Made by a program: the position numbers and the translations under genes
From: a virus
DNA length: 36,480 bases
Direction: 5' to 3' (one strand)
IMG/VR virus record: IMGVR_UViG_3300025131_000180
Coordinates: 1-36,480 of that record
Shown here: piece by piece, positions 3,393 through 19,217 of the stretch
Layout: every line of letters begins with the position of its first letter
Numbering within the stretch: position 1 is the stretch's first letter
Notes under the pieces: generated by a model
The model's input: only the letters and a program-made list of their open reading frames with translations
Told to the model about the DNA's origin: nothing
Databases searched by the model: none

Positions 3393-3393
3393 C

Positions 3394-3789: not shown

Positions 3790-4392
3790 ATGGCAACAGT
3801 ATCTGTAAATGACATTATAAAGGGCATCGCGCAGGCAGCGGCCAATGCTTATGATGGCTCACAATATGAAAAATATGCTGCCGACGGCAAAGCGCGAAAG
3901 GTTGGCCTTAAACGTGAAGAAGGCGATGCCATTCTTGATTCGAGGGTGATGGATGGTTTTAAAATTCGCATTACTGGCCCAAAGCTCATTGTTACCTACC
4001 AAACCGAACTTTCTATTAAAGAATATCACAACTCTAAGCTTGATGAAGAAATTGAGCGCACTTATAAAGGTATTGTATCGTTTTTAAAGAAAGAGTACAA
4101 AGCAATTACTGGTAATACTTTAACTCTTAAATCAGATGGAGATGCTGATATTTTAGTACAAAACATGTCTAAGATCCGCACATGGGCTCAAGCAAAAAAA
4201 GTCTATACCATCGGAGGTGTCAAAGGTTTAGATACCGTTGGTGATAATCAACTAGAAACACCCGCAGAAAAATTAAGAACTGCAGTTGAAAAGTTCTTAG
4301 CCATTGGCAAAGACAAATATCCTGGCGCTAAAAAGCCAAGCAATGCTAAGGCACCAAAAGGTGCCAAGAAAACAAACAATGCCAAAGCGTAA
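3790..4392 (+). CDS. Conserved phage protein with Lys/Ala-rich tail
   Basis: A 200-residue protein immediately after the zinc protein and overlapping the terminase start by TAATG. The N-terminal half has mixed alpha/beta character, with a beta hairpin at about 55-75 (FKIRITGPKLIVTYQTEL). The C-terminal ~30 residues are low complexity: KPSNAKAPKGAKK and KTNNAKA, strongly basic and likely disordered. A basic tail next to the packaging motor would suit nucleic-acid contact. Position just before gp17 is where T4 has gp16 (small terminase), but no coiled-coil oligomerisation helix typical of gp16 is evident. Function unassigned. Confidence 0.55.
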   Translation: MATVSVNDIIKGIAQAAANAYDGSQYEKYAADGKARKVGLKREEGDAILDSRVMDGFKIRITGPKLIVTYQTELSIKEYHNSKLDEEIERTYKGIVSFLKKEYKAITGNTLTLKSDGDADILVQNMSKIRTWAQAKKVYTIGGVKGLDTVGDNQLETPAEKLRTAVEKFLAIGKDKYPGAKKPSNAKAPKGAKKTNNAKA

Positions 4393-5978
4393 TGAGTTAC
4401 AAATTAACAAAAAAAGAGATTTTAAAAGAAGTTCTCAAGTGCGGTAAAAATTCTCAATATTTTAATAATAACTACGCTAAGATTCCACACCCGGGCCACG
4501 GCCTCATTCCGTTTAAAACATATGACTACCAAAATGATTTGCTAGAAAATTTTAATGACCACCGATTCACAGTTGTGTTAAAGGCGCGCCAGCTTGGCAT
4601 TTCTACAATTGTTGCCGGGTATATTGCGTGGCTGCTGCTTTTCCATCGTGACAAAAATGTACTTGTGGTTGCAACCAAACTAAACACCGCAGCAAATTTG
4701 GTGCGGAAAGTGAAAGGAATTATTAAACACCTACCAACATGGCTAAAAATAGCCAACATTGATATTGATAACAAAAATTCTTTCGAATTGAGTAATGGGT
4801 CACAAGTTAAGGCGTCATCGACATCAGCCGATGCAGGACGTTCTGAATCTCTATCTCTACTTGTCATTGATGAGGCTGCCCACGTCGAAAACTTGACTGA
4901 CCTGTGGACAGCATTATATCCCACCATCTCTACTGGTGGGCGATGCATCGCTTTGTCGACACCAAATGGTGTTGGCGACTGGTTTCATGAGACATACACT
5001 AAGTCTGAGGCCGGCCAAAACGAATTTTTTCCTGTGCAGTTGATGTGGGATGTGCACCCCGATAGAGATCATGAGTGGTTTGAAACAGAGACTAAAAATA
5101 TGAGCAGAAGACAGATTGCGCAAGAGTACGAGTGTAATTTTAATACATCTGGTGAAACTGTTATAGATGGCGATGACATCCAGCGACTAAAAGCAAAAAT
5201 TCAAGAACCAAAGTATAGAACGGGCATCGATAGAAATTATTGGATCTGGGAAGAGTTCAATCAAGAAAACACTTATTTGCTTGTTGCTGATGTTTCGCGC
5301 GGCGACGGCGCCGACTTTTCTGTTTTCCACATTTTCAAGTTGGAAACCATGGAAATAATTGCTGAATACCAAGGAAAGGTAACACCAGATTTATTTTCTG
5401 AAATAGTTTATAATGCCGGCCTGGAATATGGAAATGCGATGATCGTTGTAGAAAATAATAGTGTTGGGTTTGCGGTGCTCGACAAATTAATAGAAAGATC
5501 ATATCCAAATATTTATCACTCAATCAAATCTACTCATGAATATATCGATCAATATCAAGCAGAAACAACATCAAGCGCTGTAGCTGGTTTTACGACTTCT
5601 CTAAAAACACGCCCTTTAATAATCGCCAAGTTTGAAGAATTCATAAGAAATAAACTGTTAACTATTTATTCTAAGAGGTTTATTAACGAATTAGACACTT
5701 TCATTTGGAAAAACGGAAGACCCCAAGCGCAACGAAGCTACAATGATGATTTAATTATGGCCTGTGCGATTGGGTGTTGGGTGAGAGACACAGCATTAAT
5801 TGAAAATCAGCGTGATTTAGAGTACAAAAAAGCATTTTTAAATTGTATAATGACTAATAAGACACATATAGATAGCAGAATCTCCGGCATGCAGAAAACG
5901 AGCCAAACAGCAGCGTTCGAAAAAATAGTTGATGAGAAAAAGAGAATGAAAGAATTTCTCTGGCTATTAAAAGGATAG
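4392..5978 (+). CDS. 17: Terminase large subunit (gp17-like ATPase-nuclease)
   Basis: A 528-residue packaging motor. The N-terminal ATPase has a Walker A-type loop at about residues 61-70 (KARQLGISTI; compare SRQLGKT in T4), Walker B at about 156-165 (LLVIDEAAHV) and a coupling-motif-like LSTPNG near 190. The C-terminal RNase H-fold nuclease has its acidic residues in ADVSRGDGADF (about 299-309), VVENNSVGF (about 352-360) and YNDDLIMA (about 449-456), matching the three-carboxylate pattern of the family. It pumps DNA into the prohead by docking on the portal, whose gene starts 5 bases downstream. It is somewhat shorter than T4 gp17 (610). Confidence 0.95.
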   Translation: MSYKLTKKEILKEVLKCGKNSQYFNNNYAKIPHPGHGLIPFKTYDYQNDLLENFNDHRFTVVLKARQLGISTIVAGYIAWLLLFHRDKNVLVVATKLNTAANLVRKVKGIIKHLPTWLKIANIDIDNKNSFELSNGSQVKASSTSADAGRSESLSLLVIDEAAHVENLTDLWTALYPTISTGGRCIALSTPNGVGDWFHETYTKSEAGQNEFFPVQLMWDVHPDRDHEWFETETKNMSRRQIAQEYECNFNTSGETVIDGDDIQRLKAKIQEPKYRTGIDRNYWIWEEFNQENTYLLVADVSRGDGADFSVFHIFKLETMEIIAEYQGKVTPDLFSEIVYNAGLEYGNAMIVVENNSVGFAVLDKLIERSYPNIYHSIKSTHEYIDQYQAETTSSAVAGFTTSLKTRPLIIAKFEEFIRNKLLTIYSKRFINELDTFIWKNGRPQAQRSYNDDLIMACAIGCWVRDTALIENQRDLEYKKAFLNCIMTNKTHIDSRISGMQKTSQTAAFEKIVDEKKRMKEFLWLLKG

Positions 5979-5983
5979 ATTAA

Positions 5984-7981
5984 ATGGCAACCTCCAATAA
6001 TAAAAACGATAAAAACCCACGGAATGCAAATTCTTCGCTTTATAAAAAGCTAACAAAACTTTTTTCAGGCCCCCTGGTTAATTATCGTTCGCAAAACACT
6101 AGACAACTTCGCCGGCGTCGGCTAGACAAGTATTCAAAAACTTTTAAAGATGTCTCCGGTCAAAAATTTGAAAGAGTGGGCTACAGCCCCTTCGATAACC
6201 ACTCTTCTTATATGATGGGCACCCAGTCCCGATTACAACGCTATGCGGATTTTGACCAGATGGAATATACACCTGAGATTTCCTCCGCTTTAGATATATA
6301 TGCTGACGAAATGACGACTCACACCAGCATTAAACAGGTCCTTTTAATAGATTCTAACGATGAAGAGATTAAAGGTATACTAGATACACTCTTTTTTAAC
6401 GTCTTAAACATTGGGTTTAATTTGTTTGGCTGGTGCCGCACAATGTGCAAATATGGCGATTTTTATTTGTATCTGGACATTGATTCGGAGACGGGCATAA
6501 AACAAGTAGTGGGCCTCCCCAGTCAAGAGATTGAGCGGTTAGAAGGACAAGATAAAGAAAACCCCAATTACGTACAGTATCAGTGGAATTCGGGCGGTGT
6601 CACATTCGAAAATTGGCAGGTTGGGCACTTTAGGATTCTAGGAAATGACAAATTTGCTCCTTATGGTACCTCTATTTTGGACGGTGCTCGACGAATTTGG
6701 CGCCAACTGGTGCTGCTAGAGGATGCAATGATGGCGTATCGTATTGTGCGCGCGCCCGAGAGAAGGGTATTTAAAGTAGATGTAGGCAATATTCCGCCAC
6801 AAGACGTTGAACAGTATATGCAGCGGGTTATCACCTCTATGAAACGCAATCAGGTTGTAGACGCAGATACTGGTCGCATTGATTTGCGATATAACCCAAT
6901 GAGCATTGAAGAAGATTACTTTATTCCCATGCGAGGAGGTGTGGGTACTGAGATTTCAAGCCTCCCGGGAGGAACTTACACAGGCGACATCGATGATGTT
7001 AAATATTTACGAGACAAATTATTTGCTGCATTGAAAGTTCCAGCCTCTTATCTGTCTAGGGCGGAGGGCAGCGACGAAGCCCAAGCCACACTAGCCCAAA
7101 AAGATATTCGCTTTGCTAGAACAGTGCAACGCCTTCAAAGATCTATCATTACCGAGCTAGAAAAGATTGCAATTATCCACTTGTACACTCTCGGTTTTAG
7201 GGGGGATGATTTACTATCATTTAAGGTTAAGCTTCATAATCCCTCTAAAATCGCTGAAATGCAAGAGCTTGAGACTTGGAATACTAAGTTTACTGTCGCC
7301 GCGCAGGCCGTAGAAGGAATGTTTAGCAAGCGCTGGATCGCAAGAAACCTGTTTGATTTATCAGAAGAAGAATTTTTGCGAAATCAAAGAGAATTGTTTT
7401 ATGATAGTTCTGTTTCTGCAGCTTTGGCTGCGGCCGAAGCCGGCAGCGCAGAAGCTGGCGCCATGGGTGCAGCTCCCGGCGGCGGCCTAGGCGGACTCCC
7501 CGGAGGAGAAATGGGAGGAGAGATGGGAGGAGAGATGGAGATGCCCGCCGAAGAGGCCGGCCCACCACCCGGGGCCGAAGGCGAGGCCGACGCAGAGAGC
7601 GCCCTTTTGGCAGCGCCAGGCAAAAGAGATGATGAAGCCTGGACAAAAGCGTGGGTTAGCGGCAAGAAAGATGGCTCTTATGTCACGCGTAATTCGAAGG
7701 GAAAAGCATACAGGCAAAAAGTATCCGATGGCCGCCAGCATAGCGGCCCACGCCAGCAACACATGAAAGCGCAAGGATCACATGAAGCCGCTCGCCTTCC
7801 TGCACGCCAAGTAAGAATGCTGCCGTCCGGCGCTTCCGAACTACTCGGTCTTGGAAAAGGTATTTCTGAAAATAAAGAAACTATTTATAACAGTGAAGAG
7901 CGTAAATTGCTCGAAGTCAATCAAAACATACGAGACTTAATACAAGAGTTGGAACAAAAAGACGATGCCAAAACACAATAA
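5984..7981 (+). CDS. 20: Portal protein (gp20-like) with long C-terminal extension
   Basis: A 665-residue portal protein (T4 gp20 is 524). Residues 1-500 look like a T4-type portal: SALDIYADEMTTH near 103, an SLPGG loop at about 327, and RAEGSDEAQATLAQKDIRFA near 366. The portal ring is the single-vertex docking site for terminase, prohead assembly and the neck. The last ~170 residues are unusual: an Ala/Gly/Glu/Met-rich low-complexity linker (three GGEM repeats), then a basic segment and a final helix (LLEVNQNIRDLIQELEQ). The stop overlaps the next start by 17 bases. Confidence 0.93.
   Translation: MATSNNKNDKNPRNANSSLYKKLTKLFSGPLVNYRSQNTRQLRRRRLDKYSKTFKDVSGQKFERVGYSPFDNHSSYMMGTQSRLQRYADFDQMEYTPEISSALDIYADEMTTHTSIKQVLLIDSNDEEIKGILDTLFFNVLNIGFNLFGWCRTMCKYGDFYLYLDIDSETGIKQVVGLPSQEIERLEGQDKENPNYVQYQWNSGGVTFENWQVGHFRILGNDKFAPYGTSILDGARRIWRQLVLLEDAMMAYRIVRAPERRVFKVDVGNIPPQDVEQYMQRVITSMKRNQVVDADTGRIDLRYNPMSIEEDYFIPMRGGVGTEISSLPGGTYTGDIDDVKYLRDKLFAALKVPASYLSRAEGSDEAQATLAQKDIRFARTVQRLQRSIITELEKIAIIHLYTLGFRGDDLLSFKVKLHNPSKIAEMQELETWNTKFTVAAQAVEGMFSKRWIARNLFDLSEEEFLRNQRELFYDSSVSAALAAAEAGSAEAGAMGAAPGGGLGGLPGGEMGGEMGGEMEMPAEEAGPPPGAEGEADAESALLAAPGKRDDEAWTKAWVSGKKDGSYVTRNSKGKAYRQKVSDGRQHSGPRQQHMKAQGSHEAARLPARQVRMLPSGASELLGLGKGISENKETIYNSEERKLLEVNQNIRDLIQELEQKDDAKTQ
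7502..7537 (+). repeat. Three 12-bp tandem repeats encoding GGEM
   Basis: Three consecutive copies of GGAGGAGARATG lie inside the portal gene and encode (GGEM)x3. The repeats are nearly identical at the DNA level, so copy number may vary by slippage while keeping the reading frame. Confidence 0.85.
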
Positions 7982-8786
7982 AAAAAGAAACAGCGCCCTT
8001 CTTTACGAGATGCTTGTGAGAGAGGCGGTTAAACAATCAATTAATAAAAACAAAGAACAACGAGATAAAATAATTTCTACTTTAAAGTCTGGGTTTGGGA
8101 ATAGCACTGAGATGGGCAAAGAGTTGGGGCTATTTAAAAATCTGCTGGAAACTAAGGGGTTGTCTCCGCGCACGGCTGAAAAACTTATTCAAGAGACTAA
8201 AAAAGAATATAAAAGACTTGATACAAAAAAAATATTTAACGAGCAAAGCAAATTAATTAAAAAAATAAACAAAGAAATATCAAAAGGAGTCTTCTCTAAC
8301 TTTGTTCCTAACTATAGAAACATAGCAGTCCTATCGCAGATATTTGGCGAAGACATAAGCGTCAAGCGACGTGTTATTTTAGAAGAAAGCGTTTTAGAGT
8401 TTATATCTTCTGGCGCGCCCCCAAACAAAAAAACAAAGACCCCTAGCACAGGCCTTGTTGTAAGCAAGTTTATTGAAAAATTCAATGCACGCTACAACGA
8501 CACACTTCTAGAGGGTCAAAAAGCACTGCTCAACAAATTTATTCTTTCTTTTTTAGATTCCGGTGCTGATTTTAAAATATATTTAAATGAAGAAATTGAA
8601 AATTTAAAGAAAAAAGTTAATAACTCTTTTAGTCTAGGTGAACTTAAAGAAGACGAGTCCTTGGCCGCAAGAATGAAAGAAGTTAAAACACTGCTGGAAA
8701 CTTCTAACCAGAGGCCGGTAGACAAAGAATTTTTGCAACAAATTTTAAAAATACAAACTTTAGTTAAAGAGATCGAATCACAATGA
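7965..8786 (+). CDS. Conserved T4-like head-module protein between portal and protease
   Basis: A 273-residue, Lys-rich, largely helical protein that starts inside the portal 3' end and shares ATGA with the next gene. The N-terminal motif NSALLYEMLVREAVKQS and the segment GLFKNLLETKGLSPRTAEKLI resemble conserved uncharacterised proteins that marine T4-like phages encode between gp20 and gp21. A segment ESLAARMKEV (about 228-237) resembles DPLAARMKAL at the C-terminus of the scaffold (14425-15666). No catalytic motif or membrane helix is visible. A role in head assembly is inferred from position. Confidence 0.65.
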   Translation: MPKHNKKRNSALLYEMLVREAVKQSINKNKEQRDKIISTLKSGFGNSTEMGKELGLFKNLLETKGLSPRTAEKLIQETKKEYKRLDTKKIFNEQSKLIKKINKEISKGVFSNFVPNYRNIAVLSQIFGEDISVKRRVILEESVLEFISSGAPPNKKTKTPSTGLVVSKFIEKFNARYNDTLLEGQKALLNKFILSFLDSGADFKIYLNEEIENLKKKVNNSFSLGELKEDESLAARMKEVKTLLETSNQRPVDKEFLQQILKIQTLVKEIESQ

Positions 8787-9319
8787 CCATTAAAGTAACA
8801 CTTGAGAATCCTGTCGACGCAAGAATAAAGCTACAAGCGCGCCGCACACTAGATGGTAATATATTAATTTTAGACCACCCGGATATTGATATTGTTTTGT
8901 CCCCTAAAAATAAAAAAGTTCTTGCACTTTCTAAAAAACAATATGGTGATCACATTTATGCTACTCAATCGCGTTTATTCGATCATCTTATGCGCCATGG
9001 CGTTGTCGACCCCGGCAGCGTTCACGGAGGGAATGTTTATGGCTCCTTAGAGGGGATAATTTTAGAGTCTACTGAATCTAATAAAGCTGATTCAATCCAA
9101 ATGACTTTATATTCAGTGGTTAATTTTCTATTAACAGAAAAGCCCCATTATGATGCAGTTAAAAGATATGAAATGGATTTCGATAAAGAGCTTCTAGACC
9201 CAAAAGATGAAGATTCCACAGATCTGGGTGAAATACCTCATAAAAAGCGCCAGGGCACAATAACGCAGTATGCTGGCATAAACACTGCCTCCGGTTTATA
9301 TGGAATGTATCAAGAATAA
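8783..9319 (+). CDS. Conserved head-module protein, function unknown
   Basis: A 178-residue protein translationally coupled to the upstream gene (ATGA overlap). The N-terminal ~60 residues are beta-rich, with alternating hydrophobic strands (NILILDHPDIDIVL). The middle is mixed, and the C-terminus is polar and probably flexible (PHKKRQGTITQYAG). No membrane segment, cysteine pair or enzyme motif is seen. Its place between portal and prohead protease, with no promoter-like gap, argues for a role in capsid assembly. Family not recognised with certainty. Confidence 0.55.
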   Translation: MTIKVTLENPVDARIKLQARRTLDGNILILDHPDIDIVLSPKNKKVLALSKKQYGDHIYATQSRLFDHLMRHGVVDPGSVHGGNVYGSLEGIILESTESNKADSIQMTLYSVVNFLLTEKPHYDAVKRYEMDFDKELLDPKDEDSTDLGEIPHKKRQGTITQYAGINTASGLYGMYQE

Positions 9320-9328
9320 GAGGTGTAA

Positions 9329-9658
9329 ATGGGATTAATCTACTTTATTTTAGCAGCCTATGGCCTAACTCAAATTTTAATTTTCGGTTCAATTTTTAAT
9401 AAGATACGCCCCTCAAAAAGCTGGTTGTATGGTTTTGGAAAGCTATTCCACTGCCCTCTATGTATGGGTTTTTGGGCGGGCCTTTTTTTGTTTGGGATTA
9501 ATGGACACACAGAACTATTTACTTTTGAGTACGAAATAGCTAATGCCCTTATCTTAGGGTGCTTGGCTTCGGGGACCACCTATTTAATGGGGGTTCTGGT
9601 TAACGACTTTGGGTTTAAAATAACCCATAAAAATGAAGGAGAATGTAATCATGATTAA
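9329..9658 (+). CDS. DUF1360-like small membrane protein
   Basis: A 109-residue protein with ribosome binding site AAGAGG about 7 bases upstream. Three hydrophobic segments are seen: about residues 2-20, 42-56 and 70-90. The segment between the first two contains the FHCPLCMGFWAG motif (about 40-51), which I associate with the DUF1360 family of small membrane proteins, including phage members. The paired cysteines may bind metal. A polar, Cys/His-containing tail follows (GECNHD). A membrane protein inside a head operon is unexpected. It may alter the host envelope rather than form part of the virion. Function unknown. Confidence 0.6.
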   Translation: MGLIYFILAAYGLTQILIFGSIFNKIRPSKSWLYGFGKLFHCPLCMGFWAGLFLFGINGHTELFTFEYEIANALILGCLASGTTYLMGVLVNDFGFKITHKNEGECNHD

Positions 9659-9743
9659 GAAAAAATGGATGTTACGGCCCGTCGCCCACTGCTGTGGCGG
9701 CTCTAGACTCACGCGGGTGGTGCCCGCAAAAGAGGGAAAATAA
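9651..9743 (+). CDS. 30-residue microprotein
   Basis: The start ATG 9651 overlaps the end of the DUF1360-like gene. An AAGGAG ribosome binding site lies about 10 bases upstream (near 9635-9640), and the stop TAA directly abuts the protease start at 9744. The product is basic, begins MIKKKWMLRPVAHCCGG and ends VVPAKEGK, with adjacent cysteines. The good binding site and exact fit between two genes support a real gene. Alternatively, the segment could simply couple translation into the protease. Confidence 0.5.
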   Translation: MIKKKWMLRPVAHCCGGSRLTRVVPAKEGK

Positions 9744-10346
9744 ATGCAAAAAGTACTTTTACGAGAATTTTACCAACTAAAATGCGACGACCGCGGTTGT
9801 CAAGATCTTTTAACTGAGTCTGAAAAGAAACAGGTTAGTGGCGGTGCGCTCATTTTTCCAGCAAAGTTGCAGGAGTCGGATGCTGTCAATGGTAATGGCC
9901 GCGTCTATCCTCACAAGGTGTTAATGCGGGAAGTTAAAAACTATATGAAACTAGTCAGCGAGGGTCGCGCCCTTGGAGAGTGCGATCATCCCGACGAAAG
10001 CGTAATCAACCTCAGAAATGCTTCACACATGGTAAATAGGCTTTGGTGGGATGGCAAAAACCTTCTTGGCACTATCAAAGTTTTAAGCACGCCTTCGGGA
10101 AATATTTTGAGAGGGCTTTATGAAAGCGGCGTAAAGTTTGGATTTTCTTCCCGCGCGTTAGGCTCCCTAAAAGAAGATAAGGGATCTAAAATAGTGCAAG
10201 AAGATCTTCAATTAATTTGTTTCGATGCAGTTTCTGAGCCGTCTGCTCCTGGCGCATATGTTATGCGCGAGAGCATTGAAAGAAACTTGAATCAAATCTT
10301 TACAAAGGGCGATAGAATTAATCGCATCTTAAACGATATATTATAA
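9744..10346 (+). CDS. 21: Prohead core protease (gp21-like)
   Basis: A 200-residue serine protease of the herpes-assemblin/T4 gp21 type (T4 gp21 is 212 residues). Visible signatures are the N-terminal strand ALIFPAKLQESDAVNGNGRVYP (residues 35-56), the histidine motif LGECDHPD with His82, and the serine motif KFGFSSRALGS with Ser135/136. A further conserved segment is DLQLICFDAVSEPSAPGA. The family cleaves scaffold and capsid proteins after Glu in (L/I)xE sites and then itself. Likely substrates are the scaffold (14425) and major capsid protein (15682). Confidence 0.93.
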   Translation: MQKVLLREFYQLKCDDRGCQDLLTESEKKQVSGGALIFPAKLQESDAVNGNGRVYPHKVLMREVKNYMKLVSEGRALGECDHPDESVINLRNASHMVNRLWWDGKNLLGTIKVLSTPSGNILRGLYESGVKFGFSSRALGSLKEDKGSKIVQEDLQLICFDAVSEPSAPGAYVMRESIERNLNQIFTKGDRINRILNDIL

Positions 10347-10356
10347 AGAGAACAAA

Positions 10357-10791
10357 ATGAAAAAAACAGAACTAAAAGCTATTCTCAAACCATTAATCAA
10401 ACAATGTGTCAAAGAAACCCTTCTAGAGGAGGGGGTGCTTTCAAGCGTCGTAGCAGAAGTAGTCAAGGGGGTGTCACCCGGATTGGTAGAAAACAGGCAG
10501 ACACAAGACAATTCTAATCATGCAGTCCGGCTTGAGCAACAAAGGCGCCACGTAGAAGAAGAGAGATACCAAAGATTAAAAGAACAGAAAAGAAAAGTTC
10601 TTGATGCGACCGGCTTTGGTAGTGAAATATTTGAAGGCGTAAAGCCCTTGACAGAAGGGGGATCACCCGAAAGTGGCCCAAGCCGTGGCCCGCTCGCGGG
10701 CACTGACCCTGGCGATTCCGGTGTCGACATATCTGGGATCATGGCGCTCGGCGGCAATAAGTGGAAAACCTTATTTAAGGGGGAAAATTAA
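10357..10791 (+). CDS. Small head-module protein with helical N-terminus
   Basis: A 144-residue protein with an AGAG-type ribosome binding site. The N-terminal helix (MKKTELKAILKPLIKQCVKE) resembles the amphipathic starts common in these phages. Residues 50-85 form a charged, coiled-coil-like segment. About 100-125 is Gly/Ser/Pro-rich and disordered. The C-terminus has GVDISGIMALGGNKWKTLF, a compact hydrophobic tail. Position directly after the protease and before the capsid genes suggests a minor prohead or core protein. The next gene starts on the base after its stop. No enzymatic motif. Confidence 0.6.
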   Translation: MKKTELKAILKPLIKQCVKETLLEEGVLSSVVAEVVKGVSPGLVENRQTQDNSNHAVRLEQQRRHVEEERYQRLKEQKRKVLDATGFGSEIFEGVKPLTEGGSPESGPSRGPLAGTDPGDSGVDISGIMALGGNKWKTLFKGEN

Positions 10792-11019
10792 ATGGCCACA
10801 AGACCCATCAATGTAGAAGTGGAACCGAGATACGAAAACGAAAATATAGAAAGAATGGTCCGCAGATTTACGAAGAAATGTAAAAAAGAACGAATCATCG
10901 AAAACTTTAGGGAGCGCACAAGATACGAAAAACCTTCAGTTAAACGGAAGAAAGAGAAAGCGCGCCGCAAAAAAGTTTTAGAGAAGTTAAGAATCGAAAG
11001 AGAAAAGAAATTAAACTAA
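10792..11019 (+). CDS. rpsU: Ribosomal protein bS21 homologue encoded by the phage
   Basis: A 75-residue, extremely basic protein (family usually 65-75). It shows the bS21 layout: an N-terminal strand, then NIERMVRRFTKKCKKERII (residues 18-36, matching the 'ALRRFKR.CEK.G' helix), then the hallmark RTRYEKPSVKRKKEKARRK (about 42-60) and a basic C-terminal helix. In the bacterial ribosome bS21 sits on the 30S platform near the anti-Shine-Dalgarno end of 16S rRNA. Phage copies are known and are thought to compete with the host protein and favour phage messages. It starts on the base after the upstream stop, so it is co-expressed with head genes. Confidence 0.85.
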   Translation: MATRPINVEVEPRYENENIERMVRRFTKKCKKERIIENFRERTRYEKPSVKRKKEKARRKKVLEKLRIEREKKLN

Positions 11020-11028
11020 CTATTTAAT
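11019..11028 (+). promoter_or_regulatory. ACTATTTAAT motif, candidate late promoter
   Basis: Begins at the last base of the bS21 stop, in the short gap before the AAGGAG site of the gene at 11045. Same motif as at 1007, 17686, 17886, 20657 and 32759. It could start a transcript for the capsid-surface genes. Function inferred. Confidence 0.4.
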
Positions 11029-11044
11029 AAGAAGGAGAATTAAA

Positions 11045-11452
11045 ATGTTTTACCCAGGCGGAAGTGTCGGGCTAAGAAATGTAGGCTCGTACCAGATTTC
11101 AGGACATCCATTTATAACAGGATCCACGCTAGGAACAGGCCAAGAAGCTTGTATCAAATTCCCACAAGTAACAAGAGACTTTACAGTGATTAACTCTGGC
11201 TCAACTGATACCGGCCCAGTTTTGAGAGTACACTTTAATTCAACTTCATCCGGCTACGTTGTCGACAACCATCATTATGTTACATTAGAGAGCGACGATC
11301 AGAGTTACACTTTTCATCATAAATGTAAAGAGATTTATATTACATGCGCCGAGCAGGGCGGCGCCGATAACGGCTTCGAAGTGATCGCCAACCTAACGAA
11401 CATTGATGCCGGTCACATGTATGAGCTAACCGGCGCCGGACTAACCGATTAA
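11045..11452 (+). CDS. Probable capsid-associated structural protein
   Basis: A 135-residue protein with a strong AAGGAG ribosome binding site. It is Gly/Thr/Ser-rich and beta-rich with no membrane helix. The start (MFYPGGSVGLRNVGSYQISGHPFITGS) is typical of small virion proteins. A conserved-looking segment YVTLESDDQSYTFHHKCKEI occupies about 79-98. Its two closest neighbours downstream are a fibre protein and a LamG-domain protein, all preceding scaffold and capsid genes, so it may be a head decoration or adaptor protein that holds them. Enzyme motifs are absent. Role inferred from context. Confidence 0.55.
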   Translation: MFYPGGSVGLRNVGSYQISGHPFITGSTLGTGQEACIKFPQVTRDFTVINSGSTDTGPVLRVHFNSTSSGYVVDNHHYVTLESDDQSYTFHHKCKEIYITCAEQGGADNGFEVIANLTNIDAGHMYELTGAGLTD

Positions 11453-11466
11453 GGAAAAGTATTGTA

Positions 11467-13506
11467 ATGTCAGATTTTTCAGCAGGCGACAAAACAACTA
11501 AGGGAAACACGAGAGCCGCCGGTAGCGCTACTACCACTCATCAATTTACAGGAAGTGTTTATATAGAAGGCCTTTTCTCGGCTTCTTTGGGAATCTCAGC
11601 CAGCACTTTTGTGGGCGACGGCGCCGGCCTCACGAATCTTCCAGGGGGCGGAGGAGGAGGCGGAATATCCTGGGATGGTTCTACCACCAATGGTGTTGCA
11701 ACGTACAAAGATGGTGATGAAGCAACAGTCGAATCGAACCTAACATTCAATGGAGCCAACAATCGATTAACAGTTACCGGTACCGTTATACAAAGCGGCA
11801 GCACCGTGACCTTTAACGTGCCCGAAGACACAGTAGACGCATTTGTAATCTCTGGTTCAACTGGTGGTTACAATCCCACTGCGGGTTTTATGAATGTCGA
11901 TACAACCAACAAGTGGGTACAATTCGGCAGCGGTATAAACATACCTACAGACAAAGCTGTTAATTTTGGCCCGGGCACCCAAGGCGGCGGCGATGCAACA
12001 ATTAAATACAACGGATATAATTTGGTTATTTCGGGCGCGCTAGGAGGAAGCGAAACCCACATATCAGGAAATACGATTTTTGCGCAAAACGTTGATATGA
12101 AGTCCGACGTCTTCATGACCGGCACTCTTAACCATACCGGGTCTTATAAGCTGAGTGGCGCCCTCACAATAACAGGGGTAGAAGCGGCGCCAATGTTGGT
12201 ATTAGACGACACAGACGCTTCCGCTCAAATTGGCCGCGCCCACGTTGGCTATGTCGGCAGCTCTGATTTTGCAGCATTTGCACACCAGGATAATGCCGAC
12301 ACCTCCAACTATTGTATAAGTCAGCGATACACCGGTCAAACCGATATCAACACCAGGGCCGGCACAAACATGACTTTCAGGTATGCGTCGGCTACTAGAA
12401 TGCAATTAGACCAAAACGGCGGTTTTTCGATTGGATCCAATTACGCTCCTGCTGAATACAAACTCGACGTGTCTGGCTCAACAAGAATTGGTACCGATCC
12501 GTACAATGGAAGCCACAAGCTTTTTGTCACAGGGGGGATCATTCAAACAGGGAGTACTGCTTTATTCCACGTAGCTAACGGCCAAGTGGACGCCTTTGTA
12601 ATTTCGGGTTCCGCCGGCGGATTTAATCCATCTCAAGGCTTGATGAACGTCGATACGAATGCACAATGGGTACGATTTGGTGGCGGTATAAATATTCCTA
12701 CAAACTGGGGTGTTAATTTTGGAGTGGGTGACGGACAAGGTAACGGCACCGGTGGTAAAATTCAGTATAATGGAGGCAACTTAGAAATTTCTGGTGCGCA
12801 TAATTCTACGTCGATTATTTCCGGAAGTGTTAATTTTGGCTACGATACACCAACTTTTACAATTGATGCTGACAACGGCGCAATATCAGCCAAGTGCGAC
12901 GCCGGCGGAAGCTCAGGGTTCACAGTTGCCGGCCCCACCGCGTTGACGGGCTCGGAACAATATACTGTCCTCAAAGTTGAAGCCGCCGGTAAAACTGTAG
13001 CTAACGGAAATCCCGCCCTCGTTGTCGACTCCAATGGAGTCGGAGTCGGCGTGGGCTCCCCCAAAGTAGCGCTTGATGTTGCCTGGGATCCAACATACCT
13101 GTCCAATAACGAGGGAGGCGGAGAAAGAGTTTTCTTTGGCACGTGCTCAGGACCAACGGTCGCCGGCGCGCTTTATTATTTAAATTCGCAAGGTGGATGG
13201 GAGAGCGCCTCTGCCCATGGAACAGGGTCGGGCAACAATACATTGCTAGGGATCGCCATTGGTACCGGACCCGACACACACGGAATGCTGACTCGCGGCT
13301 GGTTTAATGTGGGTACTTATTATAAGGAAGGTTTTGTTACTGGTTCGGCTGTATATATTCAGTCTGGCACTGTTGGCAACACAGGCTACATGAGCGGCGC
13401 AGCCCCAACTGCGGCTGATAGTTATGTGCGCATTGTTGGGTATGCTTCCACACAAAGCGACGTTATCTACTTCAACCCCGGAACTAACTGGGTCGAGCTG
13501 AGCTAA
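11467..13506 (+). CDS. Repeat-containing fibre protein in the head operon
   Basis: A 679-residue Gly/Ser/Thr-rich protein. The N-terminal motif TFVGDGAGLTNLPGG (residues 46-60) is common in trimeric phage fibres. Two ~100-residue repeats (residues 107-205 and 358-457) share QSGST/QTGST, VDAFVISGS, MNVDT and GINIPT. Between them lies a segment with the SGSTRIGT pattern of fibre proteins. The C-terminal ~110 residues contain LLGIAIG ... HGMLTRG, also seen in the protein at 2784-3392. Location between prohead protease and capsid genes suggests a head fibre, but a tail fibre cannot be excluded. Confidence 0.65.
   Translation: MSDFSAGDKTTKGNTRAAGSATTTHQFTGSVYIEGLFSASLGISASTFVGDGAGLTNLPGGGGGGGISWDGSTTNGVATYKDGDEATVESNLTFNGANNRLTVTGTVIQSGSTVTFNVPEDTVDAFVISGSTGGYNPTAGFMNVDTTNKWVQFGSGINIPTDKAVNFGPGTQGGGDATIKYNGYNLVISGALGGSETHISGNTIFAQNVDMKSDVFMTGTLNHTGSYKLSGALTITGVEAAPMLVLDDTDASAQIGRAHVGYVGSSDFAAFAHQDNADTSNYCISQRYTGQTDINTRAGTNMTFRYASATRMQLDQNGGFSIGSNYAPAEYKLDVSGSTRIGTDPYNGSHKLFVTGGIIQTGSTALFHVANGQVDAFVISGSAGGFNPSQGLMNVDTNAQWVRFGGGINIPTNWGVNFGVGDGQGNGTGGKIQYNGGNLEISGAHNSTSIISGSVNFGYDTPTFTIDADNGAISAKCDAGGSSGFTVAGPTALTGSEQYTVLKVEAAGKTVANGNPALVVDSNGVGVGVGSPKVALDVAWDPTYLSNNEGGGERVFFGTCSGPTVAGALYYLNSQGGWESASAHGTGSGNNTLLGIAIGTGPDTHGMLTRGWFNVGTYYKEGFVTGSAVYIQSGTVGNTGYMSGAAPTAADSYVRIVGYASTQSDVIYFNPGTNWVELS
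11785..12081 (+). repeat. Fibre-domain repeat, copy A
   Basis: Encodes residues 107-205 of the fibre protein and aligns along its whole length with copy B at 12538-12837. The shared stretches VDAFVISGS, MNVDT, GINIPT and VNFG suggest an ancient intragenic duplication, because the DNA copies have diverged. Confidence 0.8.
12538..12837 (+). repeat. Fibre-domain repeat, copy B
   Basis: Encodes residues 358-457 of the fibre protein and is the partner of copy A (11785-12081). Confidence 0.8.
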
Positions 13507-13509
13507 GCC

Positions 13510-14349
13510 ATGGCCCTCGGTACTTCAAAGCCAGTTTGTTATTATCAATTCGAGAACAACGCATATGATGATTCTAATGCTGGTAATACCATGGATGGTA
13601 CTCTTGTTGCCGGCGGCTCTTTCTCCACTGCCGAGAAAGTGCGCGGCTCCTATTCCTTTTTAAATTCAGATTCTGGCGGCACCGGCTGTATTCACTCTTG
13701 CGGCGCAGTTGGGGACATGGCCTTCTTCTGGACCGGCGTCTGGACCATCTCTTTCTGGGTAAAACGCTCAGACACTGCGACACAATATGCACTGGGTACT
13801 CAAACATCGAGCGGAGTCGGCAAATATGGATTTGCTCTTAAAATAACGAACAGCCAGCTGGGCTTCCTTATATACCCGGGCACTAGCGGAACTTGGGTAT
13901 ACAGCGACACCGGATTCGGCGGCGAGACGGGCGACACAAGCGCCTGGCATCACCTTGTTGTGACTTCCGACGCCACGACTATACGTTTTTACGGCGATGG
14001 CTCCGAACACGGATCCGGCAACACCAGCTATACCACTTGGCCCGGTGCAACAGATATGCAATTCAAATTAATGCTTGGTTCGATGCCATATGGCTCCAAC
14101 ACCGGCCCATGGGGCGCCAATTATCTAGGCTATATGGATGAAGTTTCTCTCTGGGACGCAACAGCTACAGCCGATGAGGTAGCTAGCCTTTATAATAGCG
14201 GAGCAGGGCTGGATTTAAGCGACGGCCTCGGTGGAGGAGGCGGACTGCCCTCGGGCCTTAAAGACGTTGGCGGAGTTTCCGGAGACAGCGTAAAAACTGT
14301 GGGGGGAATATCCGCCGCAAGCATCAAAAATATTATGGGTATTAGTTAA
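13510..14349 (+). CDS. LamG/concanavalin-fold protein, probable capsid-surface binder
   Basis: A 279-residue protein starting 4 bases after the fibre gene. Residues 1-235 match the Laminin-G-3/concanavalin-like jelly roll: CYYQFENNAYDDS at the start, TISFWVKRSD near 79, WHHLVVTSDATTIRFYGDG near 146, and the closing LGYMDEVSLWDATATADEVA near 207. These domains commonly bind glycans or cell-surface proteins. A poly-Gly linker (about 240-245) leads to a tail with two similar units (LKDVGGVSGDSVK, KTVGGISAASIK) that may anchor it. In a head operon it recalls adhesive head-decoration proteins such as Hoc. Binding target unknown. Confidence 0.75.
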   Translation: MALGTSKPVCYYQFENNAYDDSNAGNTMDGTLVAGGSFSTAEKVRGSYSFLNSDSGGTGCIHSCGAVGDMAFFWTGVWTISFWVKRSDTATQYALGTQTSSGVGKYGFALKITNSQLGFLIYPGTSGTWVYSDTGFGGETGDTSAWHHLVVTSDATTIRFYGDGSEHGSGNTSYTTWPGATDMQFKLMLGSMPYGSNTGPWGANYLGYMDEVSLWDATATADEVASLYNSGAGLDLSDGLGGGGGLPSGLKDVGGVSGDSVKTVGGISAASIKNIMGIS

Positions 14350-14381
14350 TCAATTAATAAGGGAATTTTATAAACAAAGAA

Positions 14382-14390
14382 ACTACTTAT
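14382..14390 (+). promoter_or_regulatory. Degenerate ACTACTTAT motif before the scaffold gene
   Basis: Differs by one base from ACTATTTAT and lies in the 75-base gap before the scaffold gene. It is 35 or more bases from the start, further than most copies, so it is less convincing than the others. Confidence 0.25.
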
Positions 14391-14424
14391 TGTGATGAGA
14401 TACCTGTAACGAAGGAGAAGATTT

Positions 14425-15666
14425 ATGTCTAGCATGCTTGAAGAAGCCATTATTGATGCCCAGGCTTTAAAAGAGGCGGCTCAAAAAAGCGCCGAAGAGA
14501 AAATTATTGAACATTTTTCAAAGGATATCAAGGAGGCTGTTGATATAATCTTAGAGCAAGATGCCATGGCAATCAACGCGCCCGGGTATGCTGCGACCAT
14601 GGCGCCCACTCAAACGTATGTCCCCCAAGAAACATCTGTGATGTCCGTTCCGGCCAACCAATCTTTGGTTGATCTTGAAGCAGAGGGCGAAGATGTACAT
14701 GAGGGCGAATCGATTGTAAAACAAGCTCCTTACGCAGCCACCACTTCCGACAGGGACATTGTTAGTATCGATTTGGATAAGTTAGAAGAGGCAATTAGCC
14801 ATAGTTTACAAGAAGATACAAGCGTACCGAGCGTTCTTGATGAGAGTTTTGAAGTTGATGATATTTTGTTAGAAGAAGACGAAGACATAATAGAAGAATA
14901 TGGCGCCGCCTATGATCGTGACGAATGCGAGAAGGGTGAAATTTGGAATGAAACGACCAGAAAGTGCGTACCCGACAAAGACGCTAGCGGAATGACCATG
15001 GAAGAGAATCTTAATCTCGAAGAAATGATCCGCAGCATTTTAGCGGAAGAAGGCCCACTCCAAGAAGAATTCGTAGAAAAAACCGCCGAAGAAAGAAAAG
15101 AAGAGAAGAAAGCTGCAGCTAAGAAACGGGGCGCGCCATATCAACCGGCAGCCAAAAAGTATTGCGAAGATTATCCAATTAATAGACGGCCAGATGGGTG
15201 CTCTCCGGAGGAGGAGCGCTTTGAATCAGGCCCGGCGTCTCTTATACAACCAGCTAAAATTAACGAACACAAACAATTAAATAATAAAGTAAAACTTTTA
15301 GAACAAAAATTAAATAAATACCAAGAAGTTTTCCCTCAATTAAAAGAAAAATTGGAGGAAAGTAATCTTCAAAATGCAAGATTACATTATCAAAACCGCG
15401 TTTTAAATAGCGCCTCGTTGAATGAGCGGCAAAAAGACAGACTTGTCGAGACTATTTCGAAAGCGAATACCGTTGAAGAAGCAAAAATTATATATGAAAC
15501 TCTTCAGAGTGCAGTGGGAGCCAGCGCTACTACTAAGCGTCGTCCAAAATCACTGAACGAAGTTGTGACAAAAAGCTCTTCGGCCTTTATGCCTCGTAAA
15601 GAGGAAAAGAGGGTTGACCCCCTCGCGGCGAGAATGAAAGCTCTCGCTGGAATAACTGATAAATAA
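14425..15666 (+). CDS. 22: Prohead core scaffold (gp22-like)
   Basis: A 413-residue, strongly acidic, helical protein with an AAGGAG ribosome binding site. The N-terminal motif MLEEAIIDAQALKEAAQKSAEEKI and the conserved C-terminal coiled coil (about residues 285-375, QLNNKVKLLEQKLNKYQEVF onward), ending DPLAARMKALAGI, are typical of T4-like scaffolds placed just before gp23. The scaffold shapes the prohead and is degraded by the gp21 protease. Unusual is a central insertion with paired cysteines: ECEKGEIWNETTRKCVP (about 168-184) and YCEDYPINRRPDGC (about 246-259). It is longer than T4 gp22 (269). Confidence 0.85.
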   Translation: MSSMLEEAIIDAQALKEAAQKSAEEKIIEHFSKDIKEAVDIILEQDAMAINAPGYAATMAPTQTYVPQETSVMSVPANQSLVDLEAEGEDVHEGESIVKQAPYAATTSDRDIVSIDLDKLEEAISHSLQEDTSVPSVLDESFEVDDILLEEDEDIIEEYGAAYDRDECEKGEIWNETTRKCVPDKDASGMTMEENLNLEEMIRSILAEEGPLQEEFVEKTAEERKEEKKAAAKKRGAPYQPAAKKYCEDYPINRRPDGCSPEEERFESGPASLIQPAKINEHKQLNNKVKLLEQKLNKYQEVFPQLKEKLEESNLQNARLHYQNRVLNSASLNERQKDRLVETISKANTVEEAKIIYETLQSAVGASATTKRRPKSLNEVVTKSSSAFMPRKEEKRVDPLAARMKALAGITDK

Positions 15667-15681
15667 AGGAGGAAAGAAAAA

Positions 15682-17559
15682 ATGTCAGTACTTCAAAAAT
15701 TAACAGAAGGGATTGTTAATCGCGATCTCAAAAAGGAAGGCGCTGCACTGCTCGACAAATGGGGTAGAACAGGTCTTCTTGAAGGCCTTGGTAACGAAGG
15801 CGGCAAGCACAACATGGCTCGCCTGCTTGAAAACCAAGCCAAGGAGCTTCTTCGTGAAGCTTCAACAATGTCCGGTGGAGATGTCGAAGGTTTTGCAGCC
15901 GTCGCGTTCCCCATCGTACGCCGAGTTTTCGGTGGTCTCGTTGCTAACGAACTGGTCTCAGTTCAACCAATGAGCCTTCCATCGGGACTTATTTTCTTTA
16001 TGGATTTCACATTTAGTGATGCCGGCATGACCGGTACCGGCCCACAACATCGTCTTGGTTCGTTAGCCAATACTTCATTGTATGGTGGCGGCCGAGTTGG
16101 CCAAGAGCTAACTGGTGGTGTCGACCTTTCGGGCTTGAATCTCGAACGCAGTTTTTATAGCTTGAACAATGGCTATTCGTCTCCAACTGGAACGCTGCAG
16201 AACGGGATCACCATTGTGGCTTCCGGAACATGGGGAGACGGTACGGCACAGGTGCCCGCAGGCACCGGTGGCGATGGTCTTACGACCTTAACTGTGGCCG
16301 AAATCAATCGGATTCTCCAATTCGACCCATCTCTTGTTTCTGGTAACGTTGGTGCCCTAGGTTCGGGTACCGGTGCAACAGGAACTGGTTTTGCTATTGG
16401 TCACATCACTATTGCTACCACCGCAGGTGAAGACGAGAGTCAATTTAATTTTAATAACTTGGTGAGTCTTACTGTTTCTGGTACTGCGTGTAATGCCGGC
16501 GTTAATGGCTCCGGATCCTCCGGCAGATATGACGCTACGGCCAACCAGGCTAGAAGGTTAACTACGCTTTCTGGTACTGTTGCAGACAGAGTTGTATATG
16601 TCGTTGGGCTTGAAAACAACGCTGCTGGAACCGCAGTCAGTGGCGCAATGCTTGGTGCAACTAGCGAGGTGCCAATTTATTCGTTCGCGATGACCGATAA
16701 CTTTGGTGGAACTCCTGCTGCCGGAACGACTAACGCTCTCGGCGCGGTCGTTGGTAGAACTTCGTGGGACTTGGAAAATCAATCCAATATTCCCGAGATC
16801 GATTTAAAGGTCGATTCAGTGTCCGTCACGGCAATCACTAAAAAGCTGAAAGCTAAGTGGACACCAGAGCTTGGTCAGGACCTCAACGCCTACCATAACC
16901 TGGATGCTGAGGTCGAACTTACATCGATTCTCTCTGAGCAAATCGCTCTTGAAATTGATCGTGAGATCATGGAAGATCTTATTCAGGGTGCCACGGCTGG
17001 TACATATTACTGGTCTCGGTCGCCCGGCTTGTTCGTTAATCGCACAACCGGCGTCGAGGTTGGAGCCAATACCAAAGCCCCCGATTTCACGGGTACTGTT
17101 TCTGAGTGGTATGAGACTCTCATTGAAACAGTCAATGATGTGTCTGCTCAGATTCATCGTAAGACTTTGCGCGGCGGAGCTAACTTTATTGTTACTTCTC
17201 CCGAGGTTGCTAACATCCTTGAGTTCACGGCCGGATTCCGCGCAAGCGTTACTGCCGATGACAACAAAGGTGTTGCAGGCGCCGAGAAAGTTGGTAGCAT
17301 TAGTAAGAAATTTGACGTATACGTCGATCCTTACTTTAACCGCAACCTTGTCTTGGTTGGGCGTAAGGGCAATAGCTTCCTTGAAAGTGGCTATGTATAT
17401 GCACCTTATGTACCGTTGCAAGTTACTCCCACAATCTTTGGCGTGGAAGACTTCGTGCCCCGTAAGGGCGTCATGACTCGATATGCCAAGAAGATGGTTC
17501 GTCCCGATATGTACGGCTTGGTCGTCGTTCGCGGACTGCTTGGTGAGAGTGGTTCTTAA
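15682..17559 (+). CDS. 23: Major capsid protein (gp23-like)
   Basis: A 625-residue HK97-fold capsid protein (T4 gp23 is 521), with a GGAGG site 11-15 bases upstream. The N-terminal propeptide carries an LLREA sequence; cleavage by the gp21-like protease after Glu59 (LRE site) is predicted. The diagnostic segment FPIVRRVFGGLVANELVSVQ (76-95) corresponds to the MVRRAIPNLIAFD region of gp23. A Gly/Thr-rich insertion at about residues 165-340 explains the extra size. The C-terminal half has TPELGQDLNAYHNLDAE (about 394-410). Clean codon pattern and strong signals fit the most highly expressed gene; a terminator follows 30 bases after the stop. Confidence 0.95.
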   Translation: MSVLQKLTEGIVNRDLKKEGAALLDKWGRTGLLEGLGNEGGKHNMARLLENQAKELLREASTMSGGDVEGFAAVAFPIVRRVFGGLVANELVSVQPMSLPSGLIFFMDFTFSDAGMTGTGPQHRLGSLANTSLYGGGRVGQELTGGVDLSGLNLERSFYSLNNGYSSPTGTLQNGITIVASGTWGDGTAQVPAGTGGDGLTTLTVAEINRILQFDPSLVSGNVGALGSGTGATGTGFAIGHITIATTAGEDESQFNFNNLVSLTVSGTACNAGVNGSGSSGRYDATANQARRLTTLSGTVADRVVYVVGLENNAAGTAVSGAMLGATSEVPIYSFAMTDNFGGTPAAGTTNALGAVVGRTSWDLENQSNIPEIDLKVDSVSVTAITKKLKAKWTPELGQDLNAYHNLDAEVELTSILSEQIALEIDREIMEDLIQGATAGTYYWSRSPGLFVNRTTGVEVGANTKAPDFTGTVSEWYETLIETVNDVSAQIHRKTLRGGANFIVTSPEVANILEFTAGFRASVTADDNKGVAGAEKVGSISKKFDVYVDPYFNRNLVLVGRKGNSFLESGYVYAPYVPLQVTPTIFGVEDFVPRKGVMTRYAKKMVRPDMYGLVVVRGLLGESGS

Positions 17560-17588
17560 ACCATAAAATAGATTTTTAATCTGGATTG

Positions 17589-17625
17589 GCCCTCACCCCT
17601 AAAAAGGTGAGGGCTTTTTCTTTTT
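17589..17625 (+). terminator. Rho-independent terminator after the major capsid gene
   Basis: GCCCTCACC (17589-17597) pairs perfectly over 9 bp with GGTGAGGGC (17606-17614) around an 8-base loop. It is followed directly by TTTTTCTTTTT. This is the clearest terminator in the window and separates the capsid operon from the neck/tail genes. Confidence 0.93.
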
Positions 17626-17685
17626 AAAAAAGTGCAATTGCTCAATTTTTGCGGGCCCAATTTTTTGAGATTCCGAATGTTGGAA

Positions 17686-17694
17686 ACTATTTAT
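17686..17694 (+). promoter_or_regulatory. ACTATTTAT motif, candidate late promoter
   Basis: Lies after the capsid terminator and 26 bases before the ATG at 17712, immediately upstream of the AAAGGAG site. A promoter here would restart transcription after the terminator. Function inferred from position and recurrence. Confidence 0.5.
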
Positions 17695-17711
17695 TAGAAA
17701 GGAGATTTATT

Positions 17712-17849
17712 ATGGGTAAAAAATGGAAAAAACTTTGGCTGTCGAGAAAAGGGGCGGCCACCAAAAAAGTCACGGAAGAGGCCTCGGAAGAAACAAAAAC
17801 AAAGAAGGTTAAGAAGTCCCCTTTCTGGAAAAAGAAGAAAGAAAGCTAA
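17712..17849 (+). CDS. Lys-rich 45-residue protein
   Basis: The start ATG 17712 follows a strong AAAGGAG site; a longer in-frame ORF from 17649 would run through the candidate promoter and is rejected. The product is highly basic: MGKKWKKLWLSRKG, a Thr/Glu-rich centre, and PFWKKKKES at the end. The ends mirror each other (W-K-K motifs). It is flanked by two ACTATTTAT motifs, so it may be transcribed as its own unit and strongly. Such a protein could bind nucleic acid, capsid or ribosome. No family recognised. Confidence 0.6.
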   Translation: MGKKWKKLWLSRKGAATKKVTEEASEETKTKKVKKSPFWKKKKES

Positions 17850-17885
17850 TACACCTTCTCTCTGTAGCTTTTTCTGATCCCCAAA

Positions 17886-17894
17886 ACTATTTAT
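17886..17894 (+). promoter_or_regulatory. ACTATTTAT motif, candidate late promoter
   Basis: Part of the 12-base dyad ACTATTTATAGT (17886-17897), directly before the GAGGAG ribosome binding site and 27 bases before ATG 17913. It is a candidate promoter for the neck genes. Function inferred. Confidence 0.5.
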
Positions 17895-17912
17895 AGTGAG
17901 GAGATCTAATGA

Positions 17913-19217
17913 ATGGCACAACCCACCTTAAGACCAGCGTCTCAAACAAGCACAGCGGTGCTTCCATCGGCTAGCGTACCTAGCGACGTAGAAAACAATA
18001 GTGCGCTACCGTTTCAAATCTATTCAGACTCCAGCACACCATCGTCATTGTTTTCTGAATACTTTTGCTCTGGGGCGGCCGAACAGGTAGCTTACACATA
18101 TAGAAAGTTTGGTGGCGATGTATTGGACATCGAATTAACGAGCGGCAGCGTGTTTACCGCATATGAAGAAGCGATTTTAGAATATTCTTATCTTATCAAT
18201 ATTCATCAAGCAAAAAATTCACTTTCAGACTTACTGGGCGCAACAACGGGCACTTTTGATCACGAAGGTCAGATTCAGAGCGGCGAAAGCTTGTCTGGTA
18301 AAAATGTTAATCTTAAATATCCCCGTTTTGAATTCGCATACGCTCGAAGAGTGGGTTACGGTGTCTCGACGGAAGCCGGCTTCGGCGGAGAAACAACAAT
18401 TTACTCAGCCTCTTTTAGCGGTACCGCTGGACAACAAGATTTTGATTTACAACAGATCGTATCTTCTTCAGCAGCCACTAATTCCTCCATGCAATTTTAT
18501 GGCAAAGTTGGCGACAAGAGGATTAACGTTACAAAAGTGTATTATAAATCACCTCAAGCCATGTGGCGGTTTTACGGATATTATGGCGGCTTAAATACAG
18601 TTGGAGATTTGTCTAGTTACGGACAGTGGACAGACGATTCAACCTTTCAGATAATTCCGGCATGGCAAAACAAAGCACAAGCTATGGCTTTCGAAGATGC
18701 TATTTACACAAGAAACTCTCACTATTCATATGAGATAAAGAATAACAAAATAAGAATATTTCCCAATATTGTTAATACTAGCCCGCACCAGTTTTTTATG
18801 GAGTTTTTCGTAGATTCCGACCCATGGGACGCCGGAGACGTGTCTGGACGAGGCGGAGGCGCCCCAATCCAAGGGATAAATAACATGAATACGCTTCCTT
18901 TCGAAAATCTTCCTTATGATAACATTAATGCAATTGGAAAACAGTGGATTCGTAGGTTTGCCCTGTCGCTTTCTAAGGGAATACTGGGCGCCATAAGAAG
19001 TAAATTTGGAACGATACCGATTCCTGGAGATTCTGTAACTTTAGATGGGAAAGACTTAGTTACACAAGCTCAAACCGAACAAAAAGATTTGAGAGAAGAA
19101 TTAAAGACGATCTTAGACGAGCTAACATATGCCAAATTAGTGGAAAACGATGCCAAGCTCTCAGATAGTGTCAACACCATTGAGAAATACGTTCCTCTCA
19201 AGGTATTTGTGGGGTAA
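17913..19217 (+). CDS. 13: Neck protein, gp13-like
   Basis: A 434-residue protein with the GAGGAG binding site 9-14 bases upstream. The C-terminal part resembles T4-type neck protein gp13 of marine phages: FALSLSKGILGAIRSKFGTI (about 350-369), then PIPGDSVTLDGKDLVTQA and a long helix with KDLREELKTILDELTYAKL. The N-terminal region has a conserved-looking SPL-type segment (FGGDVLDIELTSGSVFTAYE, about 70-89). Gp13 helps close the filled head and join it to the tail. At 434 residues it is longer than T4 gp13 (309), with extra material in the Gly/Ser-rich middle. The next genes are also neck or tail-completion components. Confidence 0.7.
   Translation: MAQPTLRPASQTSTAVLPSASVPSDVENNSALPFQIYSDSSTPSSLFSEYFCSGAAEQVAYTYRKFGGDVLDIELTSGSVFTAYEEAILEYSYLINIHQAKNSLSDLLGATTGTFDHEGQIQSGESLSGKNVNLKYPRFEFAYARRVGYGVSTEAGFGGETTIYSASFSGTAGQQDFDLQQIVSSSAATNSSMQFYGKVGDKRINVTKVYYKSPQAMWRFYGYYGGLNTVGDLSSYGQWTDDSTFQIIPAWQNKAQAMAFEDAIYTRNSHYSYEIKNNKIRIFPNIVNTSPHQFFMEFFVDSDPWDAGDVSGRGGGAPIQGINNMNTLPFENLPYDNINAIGKQWIRRFALSLSKGILGAIRSKFGTIPIPGDSVTLDGKDLVTQAQTEQKDLREELKTILDELTYAKLVENDAKLSDSVNTIEKYVPLKVFVG

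Follow-up and report, generated by a model that had tools for sequence, protein, structure and literature searches.

A bS21-family ribosomal protein gene held within the head module of a large phage group

Introduction

Why would a phage carry a gene for a protein of the small ribosomal subunit among the genes that build its head, and what would the product do there? This question is raised by the stretch of viral DNA analyzed here (the window), a record of 36,480 bases with the IMG/VR class "linear" that is probably a fragment and in which a gene for ribosomal protein bS21 lies between the prohead protease gene and the capsid gene. Phage-encoded bS21 is also found in the pelagiphage HTVC008M, a marine myovirus, and it was shown that this protein stably enters E. 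coli 70S ribosomes (Mizuno et al., 2019; PMC6375957). Moreover, a survey of 900 bS21 phages reported bS21 among the TerL, portal, protease and capsid genes, usually at a distance of 2–4 genes from the prohead protease (n = 310) and capsid genes, and described late transcription (Chen et al., 2022; PMC9723584).

Identity of the bS21 Gene

The reading frame at 10792–11019 (+ strand) encodes a bS21-family protein. It is uninterrupted over 75 amino acids, several stops are present on the opposite strand in the same register, and the product is basic (28 lysine and arginine vs. 13 acidic residues; pI 10.6). The original prediction had assigned the 75-residue product to bS21 and proposed a profile search as a check; PF01165 matches with 49.5 bits (E = 3.6e-13), above its curated cut-off of 27 bits, in agreement with the PHROG family "ribosomal protein S21" (E = 8.8e-8) and with a PDB sequence search in which the best 33 matches are all bS21. 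The same profile matches 21 of 21 diverse relatives. An AlphaFold model is fairly confident (mean pLDDT 84) with helices at residues 19–32, 35–43 and 48–74, and a Foldseek search with this model returned bS21 of the E. coli 30S subunit at the top (probability 0.95, TM 0.56–0.62), the modest E value of 0.08 being expected for a short helical chain. Furthermore, the median pairwise dN/dS of 0.066 (66 pairs from 12 close relatives) shows that the coding is real and under strong purifying selection.

Across 103 phage members the K-P-S/T motif is retained (K in 100%, P in 95% and S in 97%), and F26, K47, P48 and S49 are nearly invariant in the group. The first helix differs from cellular bS21, with methionine or leucine replacing alanine at position 22, lysine at position 31 and arginine or lysine replacing glycine at position 34. 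In the phages of Chen et al. (2022; PMC9723584) the divergence of bS21 likewise lies mostly in the N-terminal helix.

Gene Order and Expression Signals in the Window

The order of the genes matches the head and tail module of a T4-like myovirus. On the + strand, the terminase large subunit (4392–5978; phrog_2), the portal protein (5984–7981; PF07230, E = 4.7e-79) and a prohead protease of the T4 gp21 type (Peptidase S77; 9744–10346; PF03420, E = 3.9e-29; phrog_207, E = 1.1e-48) are followed by g144 (10357–10791), the conserved partner gene of bS21, then by bS21 itself and by g135 (11045–11452), which encodes a conserved small protein without a family match in Pfam or PHROG and lies downstream of bS21 in many relatives. 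Large late genes come next, then, also on the + strand, a gene for an acidic scaffold-like protein (14425–15666; pI 4.7) in the position of T4 gp22 directly upstream of the capsid gene, the major capsid protein Gp23 (15682–17559; PF07068, E = 2.6e-71; phrog_138), and the tail sheath and tube genes. Within the window, neither tRNAs nor Rfam RNAs were found.

The stop codon of g144 (TAA, 10789–10791) directly abuts the ATG of bS21 at 10792, exactly as had been predicted, and a Shine-Dalgarno (SD) sequence, AAGGGGG, is placed within the end of g144 (10772–10791). Since bS21 abuts g144, the two genes are probably translated by coupled initiation. The claim that many late genes carry strong AGGAG sites, of interest because bS21 works close to the anti-SD sequence, is borne out as well: a pairing energy of −6 kcal/mol or better was obtained for 20 of 34 starts (59%) vs. 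12% of 198 internal ATGs (p = 2e-9), and the two strongest SD sites of the window belong to the capsid gene (−11.6 kcal/mol) and to bS21 (−11.2 kcal/mol).

Co-expression of bS21 with the head genes, which had also been proposed, draws support from the gene order, the tight spacing and a terminator-like site. In a consensus scan, a hairpin with a T tract at 17588–17625 (10-bp stem, 7 G-C; TTTTCTTTTT), located after the capsid gene, was the strongest + strand terminator-like site within 4000–18500, although their total number is no higher than expected by chance, and the same scan gave no comparable + strand site between protease and capsid. A single message from protease to capsid fits this placement. 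However, there is no recognizable T4-type late promoter upstream of bS21; exact + strand copies of the T4-type motif TATAAATA occur only within genes, at 12687 and 25954, and were rejected as candidates. The number of Sigma-70-like promoters in the window is not above chance.

A separate observation concerns an unannotated mini-frame at 9651–9743 (+; MIKKKWMLRPVAHCCGGSRLTRVVPAKEGK), which has a strong SD site and whose stop abuts the ATG of the protease gene. In 77 distinct relatives a mini-frame is present, mostly of 18–45 amino acids from stop to stop, with the pattern K/R-W-x-L-Q-P-V-R-R/H-C-C-x-G-S and often ending after GS. The search pattern included P, V, CC, G and S, and the conserved W (76/77), L (72/77), Q (63/77) and R (64/77) lie outside it. 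The relatives use varied synonymous codons, and in 51 of the 77 a hairpin of the type GCGGG..CCCGC comes right after the mini-frame; the region in the window folds no better than shuffled sequences. Searches of phage records and Rfam gave no clear match. One possibility is that the mini-frame encodes a leader peptide of the head operon, or one of the arrest type.

Conservation of the Arrangement

With bS21 and the protease as queries, more than 150 loci were gathered; they were annotated by iterated profile search and include 106 distinct bS21 frames, 100 of them with g144 on the same contig. As the loci were picked by similarity to this bS21 or protease, the following counts describe this group and not phages generally. 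In 94 of the 100 distinct loci the start of bS21 lies at −8 to +36 nt relative to the stop of g144, individual gaps possibly being off due to start codons chosen by rule, and in 51 of 51 loci having all three genes bS21 lies between protease and capsid. No bS21 on the minus strand was found in the analyzed loci, which were oriented by their match and have the protease on the + strand too. The spacing between protease and g144 exceeds 500 nt in 29 of 94 loci due to insertion of other genes, with g144 and bS21 usually still paired. Moreover, bS21 is correlated in its pairwise distances with g144 (rho 0.50), portal (0.48) and g273 (0.56), all permutation maxima being ≤0.13, which argues that bS21 mostly travelled with the head module. 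The arrangement is old and strongly conserved throughout a large phage group.

Exceptions exist. In three loci (L125, L127 and L129) g144 and bS21 are 0.6–3.8 kb apart, and in one locus (L091) g144 and the head block are kept but bS21 is missing, which shows that this gene can be lost. More distant relatives (L069–L089, L093 and L095), with proteases about 40–50% identical, have neither g144 nor bS21.

Comparison With Known Systems

The window resembles the Bacteroidetes phages of Chen et al. (2022; PMC9723584), which are large phages with bS21 within the TerL/portal/protease/MCP region and with a conserved neighbor gene whose history tracks bS21. There are also clear differences. In those phages bS21 is encoded on the strand opposite to the head genes and the region does not form a single operon, whereas in the window bS21 is on the same strand and abuts g144. 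Their hosts are SD-poor Bacteroidetes, whereas the window phage has strong SD sites. Finally, they keep an aromatic residue at the position of Tyr54 of Flavobacterium johnsoniae, and such a residue serves to block the anti-SD in Bacteroidota bS21. The window has Lys61 at this position, and an aromatic residue or histidine occurs in only 3 of 103 phage members, the column having been placed via the bS21 of a Flavobacteriaceae MAG (L179) and not via F. johnsoniae itself.

A similar order was found in the cultured Microcystis phage Mel-JY01 (PP395634), in which TerL, portal, prohead protease, a hypothetical gene, RpsU and, further downstream, capsid lie on one strand. Its annotated RpsU matches PF01165 with 45.1 bits, but it is only 38% identical to the window bS21 over 50 residues and the neighboring gene is not recognizably g144. 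Judged by its long branch in the tree described below, the Mel-JY01 bS21 may be of separate origin and the slot may have been filled independently. Another candidate, gp069 of Flavobacterium phage immuto (75 amino acids, directly after the protease), was rejected as an unannotated bS21, as it has no PF01165 match. The original prediction placed bS21 correctly within the capsid assembly genes; the protease gene lies upstream and the scaffold-like and capsid genes downstream. The novelty it implied finds no support in view of Mel-JY01 and of Chen et al. (2022; PMC9723584), where both the head-gene neighborhood and the idea of late ribosome modification had largely been published.

Origin of the Phage bS21

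In a maximum-likelihood tree of phage bS21s and cellular bS21s from two phyla plus a few others, the latter sampled by similarity to the window bS21, the phage sequences form one branch (support 100/97) apart from nearly all sampled cellular sequences. One long-branch row from a Woesebacteria MAG falls inside this branch, and the Mel-JY01 protein is outside of it on a long branch among cellular sequences. Many forks are unresolved because the alignment has only 78 columns. The phylogeny, suggested as a means of finding the host lineage, singled out no cellular lineage as the source. A single genome scan gave no well-supported cellular neighbor; the nearest matches (L099, L102 and L103) are MAG contigs labeled Acidiferrobacteraceae, Flavobacteriaceae and Woesebacteria. 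Since the protease-g144-bS21 block is present on each of them, these contigs probably come from phages and were binned with bacterial sequences; the respective genomes hold separate bS21 copies too. The strong use of SD sites argues against a Bacteroidetes host.

These data bear on the possibility that bS21 is an ordinary auxiliary gene, recently captured from a host, which lies among head genes by chance and has no special timing. Many moves of bS21 between hosts and phages have been argued for (Mizuno et al., 2019; PMC6375957), and the position of the Mel-JY01 protein among cellular sequences would fit such an event. However, the common branch of the group's bS21s, their fixed position and distances that track those of the head genes make this explanation unlikely.

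The Partner Gene g144 and Protease-Type Sites

The head protease of phage T4 cleaves after L/I-x-E (PMC9026906). In 104 distinct members g144 has 2.9 times the shuffled expectation of such sites, and for the stricter pattern [LI]xE[GAS] 1.99 vs. 0.47 per protein. Group-wide, the protease, the scaffold-like protein (18.4 vs. 9.4 L/I-x-E sites per protein; 70 members) and the capsid protein also have about twice the shuffled number or more, and the portal and g434 show no comparable excess. In bS21 the enrichment of L/I-x-E is mild (1.33 vs. 0.90; 1.5 times) and [LI]xE[GAS] is not in excess (0.07 vs. 0.08). The measure is not clean, since TerL (1.4 times) and g273 (2.1 times) are raised as well. 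Moreover, not all packaged phage proteins are cut, so that the contrast between g144, which resembles a processed core protein, and bS21, which has no such resemblance, is suggestive and not decisive. No match to g144 was found in Pfam, PHROG or phage records; it has a conserved N-terminal helix (KP..K.C..E...EEG.LS) and a C-terminal D.GVDIS...W motif, and its model consists of long helices but is too poor for a structural comparison (pTM 0.23). Its product is likely a prohead core protein.

The pairing with a gene that looks like a prohead protease substrate opens another explanation, namely that bS21, a basic and helical protein made with g144, has become part of the head core or a packaged protein: it would be incorporated into the prohead and might be injected with the DNA, reaching ribosomes at the very onset of infection. 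The tight and conserved pairing would fit, as would the N-terminal helix unlike that of cellular bS21, and in T4 internal proteins of this core are packaged and later ejected (PMC9026906). On the other hand, bS21 lacks the site excess of g144, protease, scaffold-like and capsid proteins, retains its entire domain and the KPS motif, and is separated from g144 or absent in the exceptional loci described above. In addition, an apparent g144-bS21 fusion in L103 is due to a two-base indel in an A-run, the near-identical contig L175 having two separate genes. We therefore regard recruitment as a head-core protein as quite improbable. A combined version, in which bS21 enters the prohead together with g144, is injected along with the DNA, and so modifies host ribosomes both at the onset of infection and in its late phase, is more doubtful still. 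A search of the available literature for bS21 in virion proteomes gave no result. Independently of this, L175 has frames resembling GIY-YIG homing endonucleases by eye only (3169–3975 and 5189–5908; YVITNSIDGKVYIGS / YQIRNLINGKAYIGS), which flank its g144-bS21 block.

Proposed Role of the Phage bS21

The explanation we favor, with a probability of roughly 0.7, is that synthesis of the phage bS21 keeps pace with that of the head proteins, and that the protein takes the place of host bS21 on the 30S subunit or supplements it. Production together with the head proteins would follow from the abutment with g144 and a single protease-to-capsid message, and expression would be late in infection if it resembles that of the phages of Chen et al. 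(2022; PMC9723584). The protein would then enter host ribosomes, as suggested by the work of Mizuno et al. (2019; PMC6375957), and published work on other phages suggests that initiation might thereby be biased towards phage messages. Strong SD sites together with a bS21 that has no anti-SD-blocking aromatic residue suggest that the likeliest effect would be on ordinary SD-dependent initiation and not the anti-SD block proposed for Bacteroidota phages. Any benefit is putative, as ribosomes with the pelagiphage bS21 gave only about 5% of the normal protein output in vitro in E. coli (PMC6375957). The original idea of late ribosome modification appears reasonable in the light of this analysis. 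A main function off the ribosome, e.g., as an RNA-binding regulator of head mRNAs, is very improbable, for although bS21 is reported in the OLE ribonucleoprotein complex of Bacillota (PMC12054373), nothing points to a specific RNA target and the window has no Rfam match.

Implications

Beyond the published work, the analysis shows how widespread and how tight the arrangement is in an SD-using group that lacks two features of the clades described by Chen et al. (2022), and it adds the partner gene g144 and a bS21 with no aromatic anti-SD residue. A large phage group distinct from the published Bacteroidetes clades has long kept bS21 in its head module, where it is tied to a gene whose product resembles a prohead core protein. 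With closely spaced genes on the same strand and SD-using messages, this group would offer a cleaner test bed for the question whether a phage bS21 favors SD-bearing late messages.
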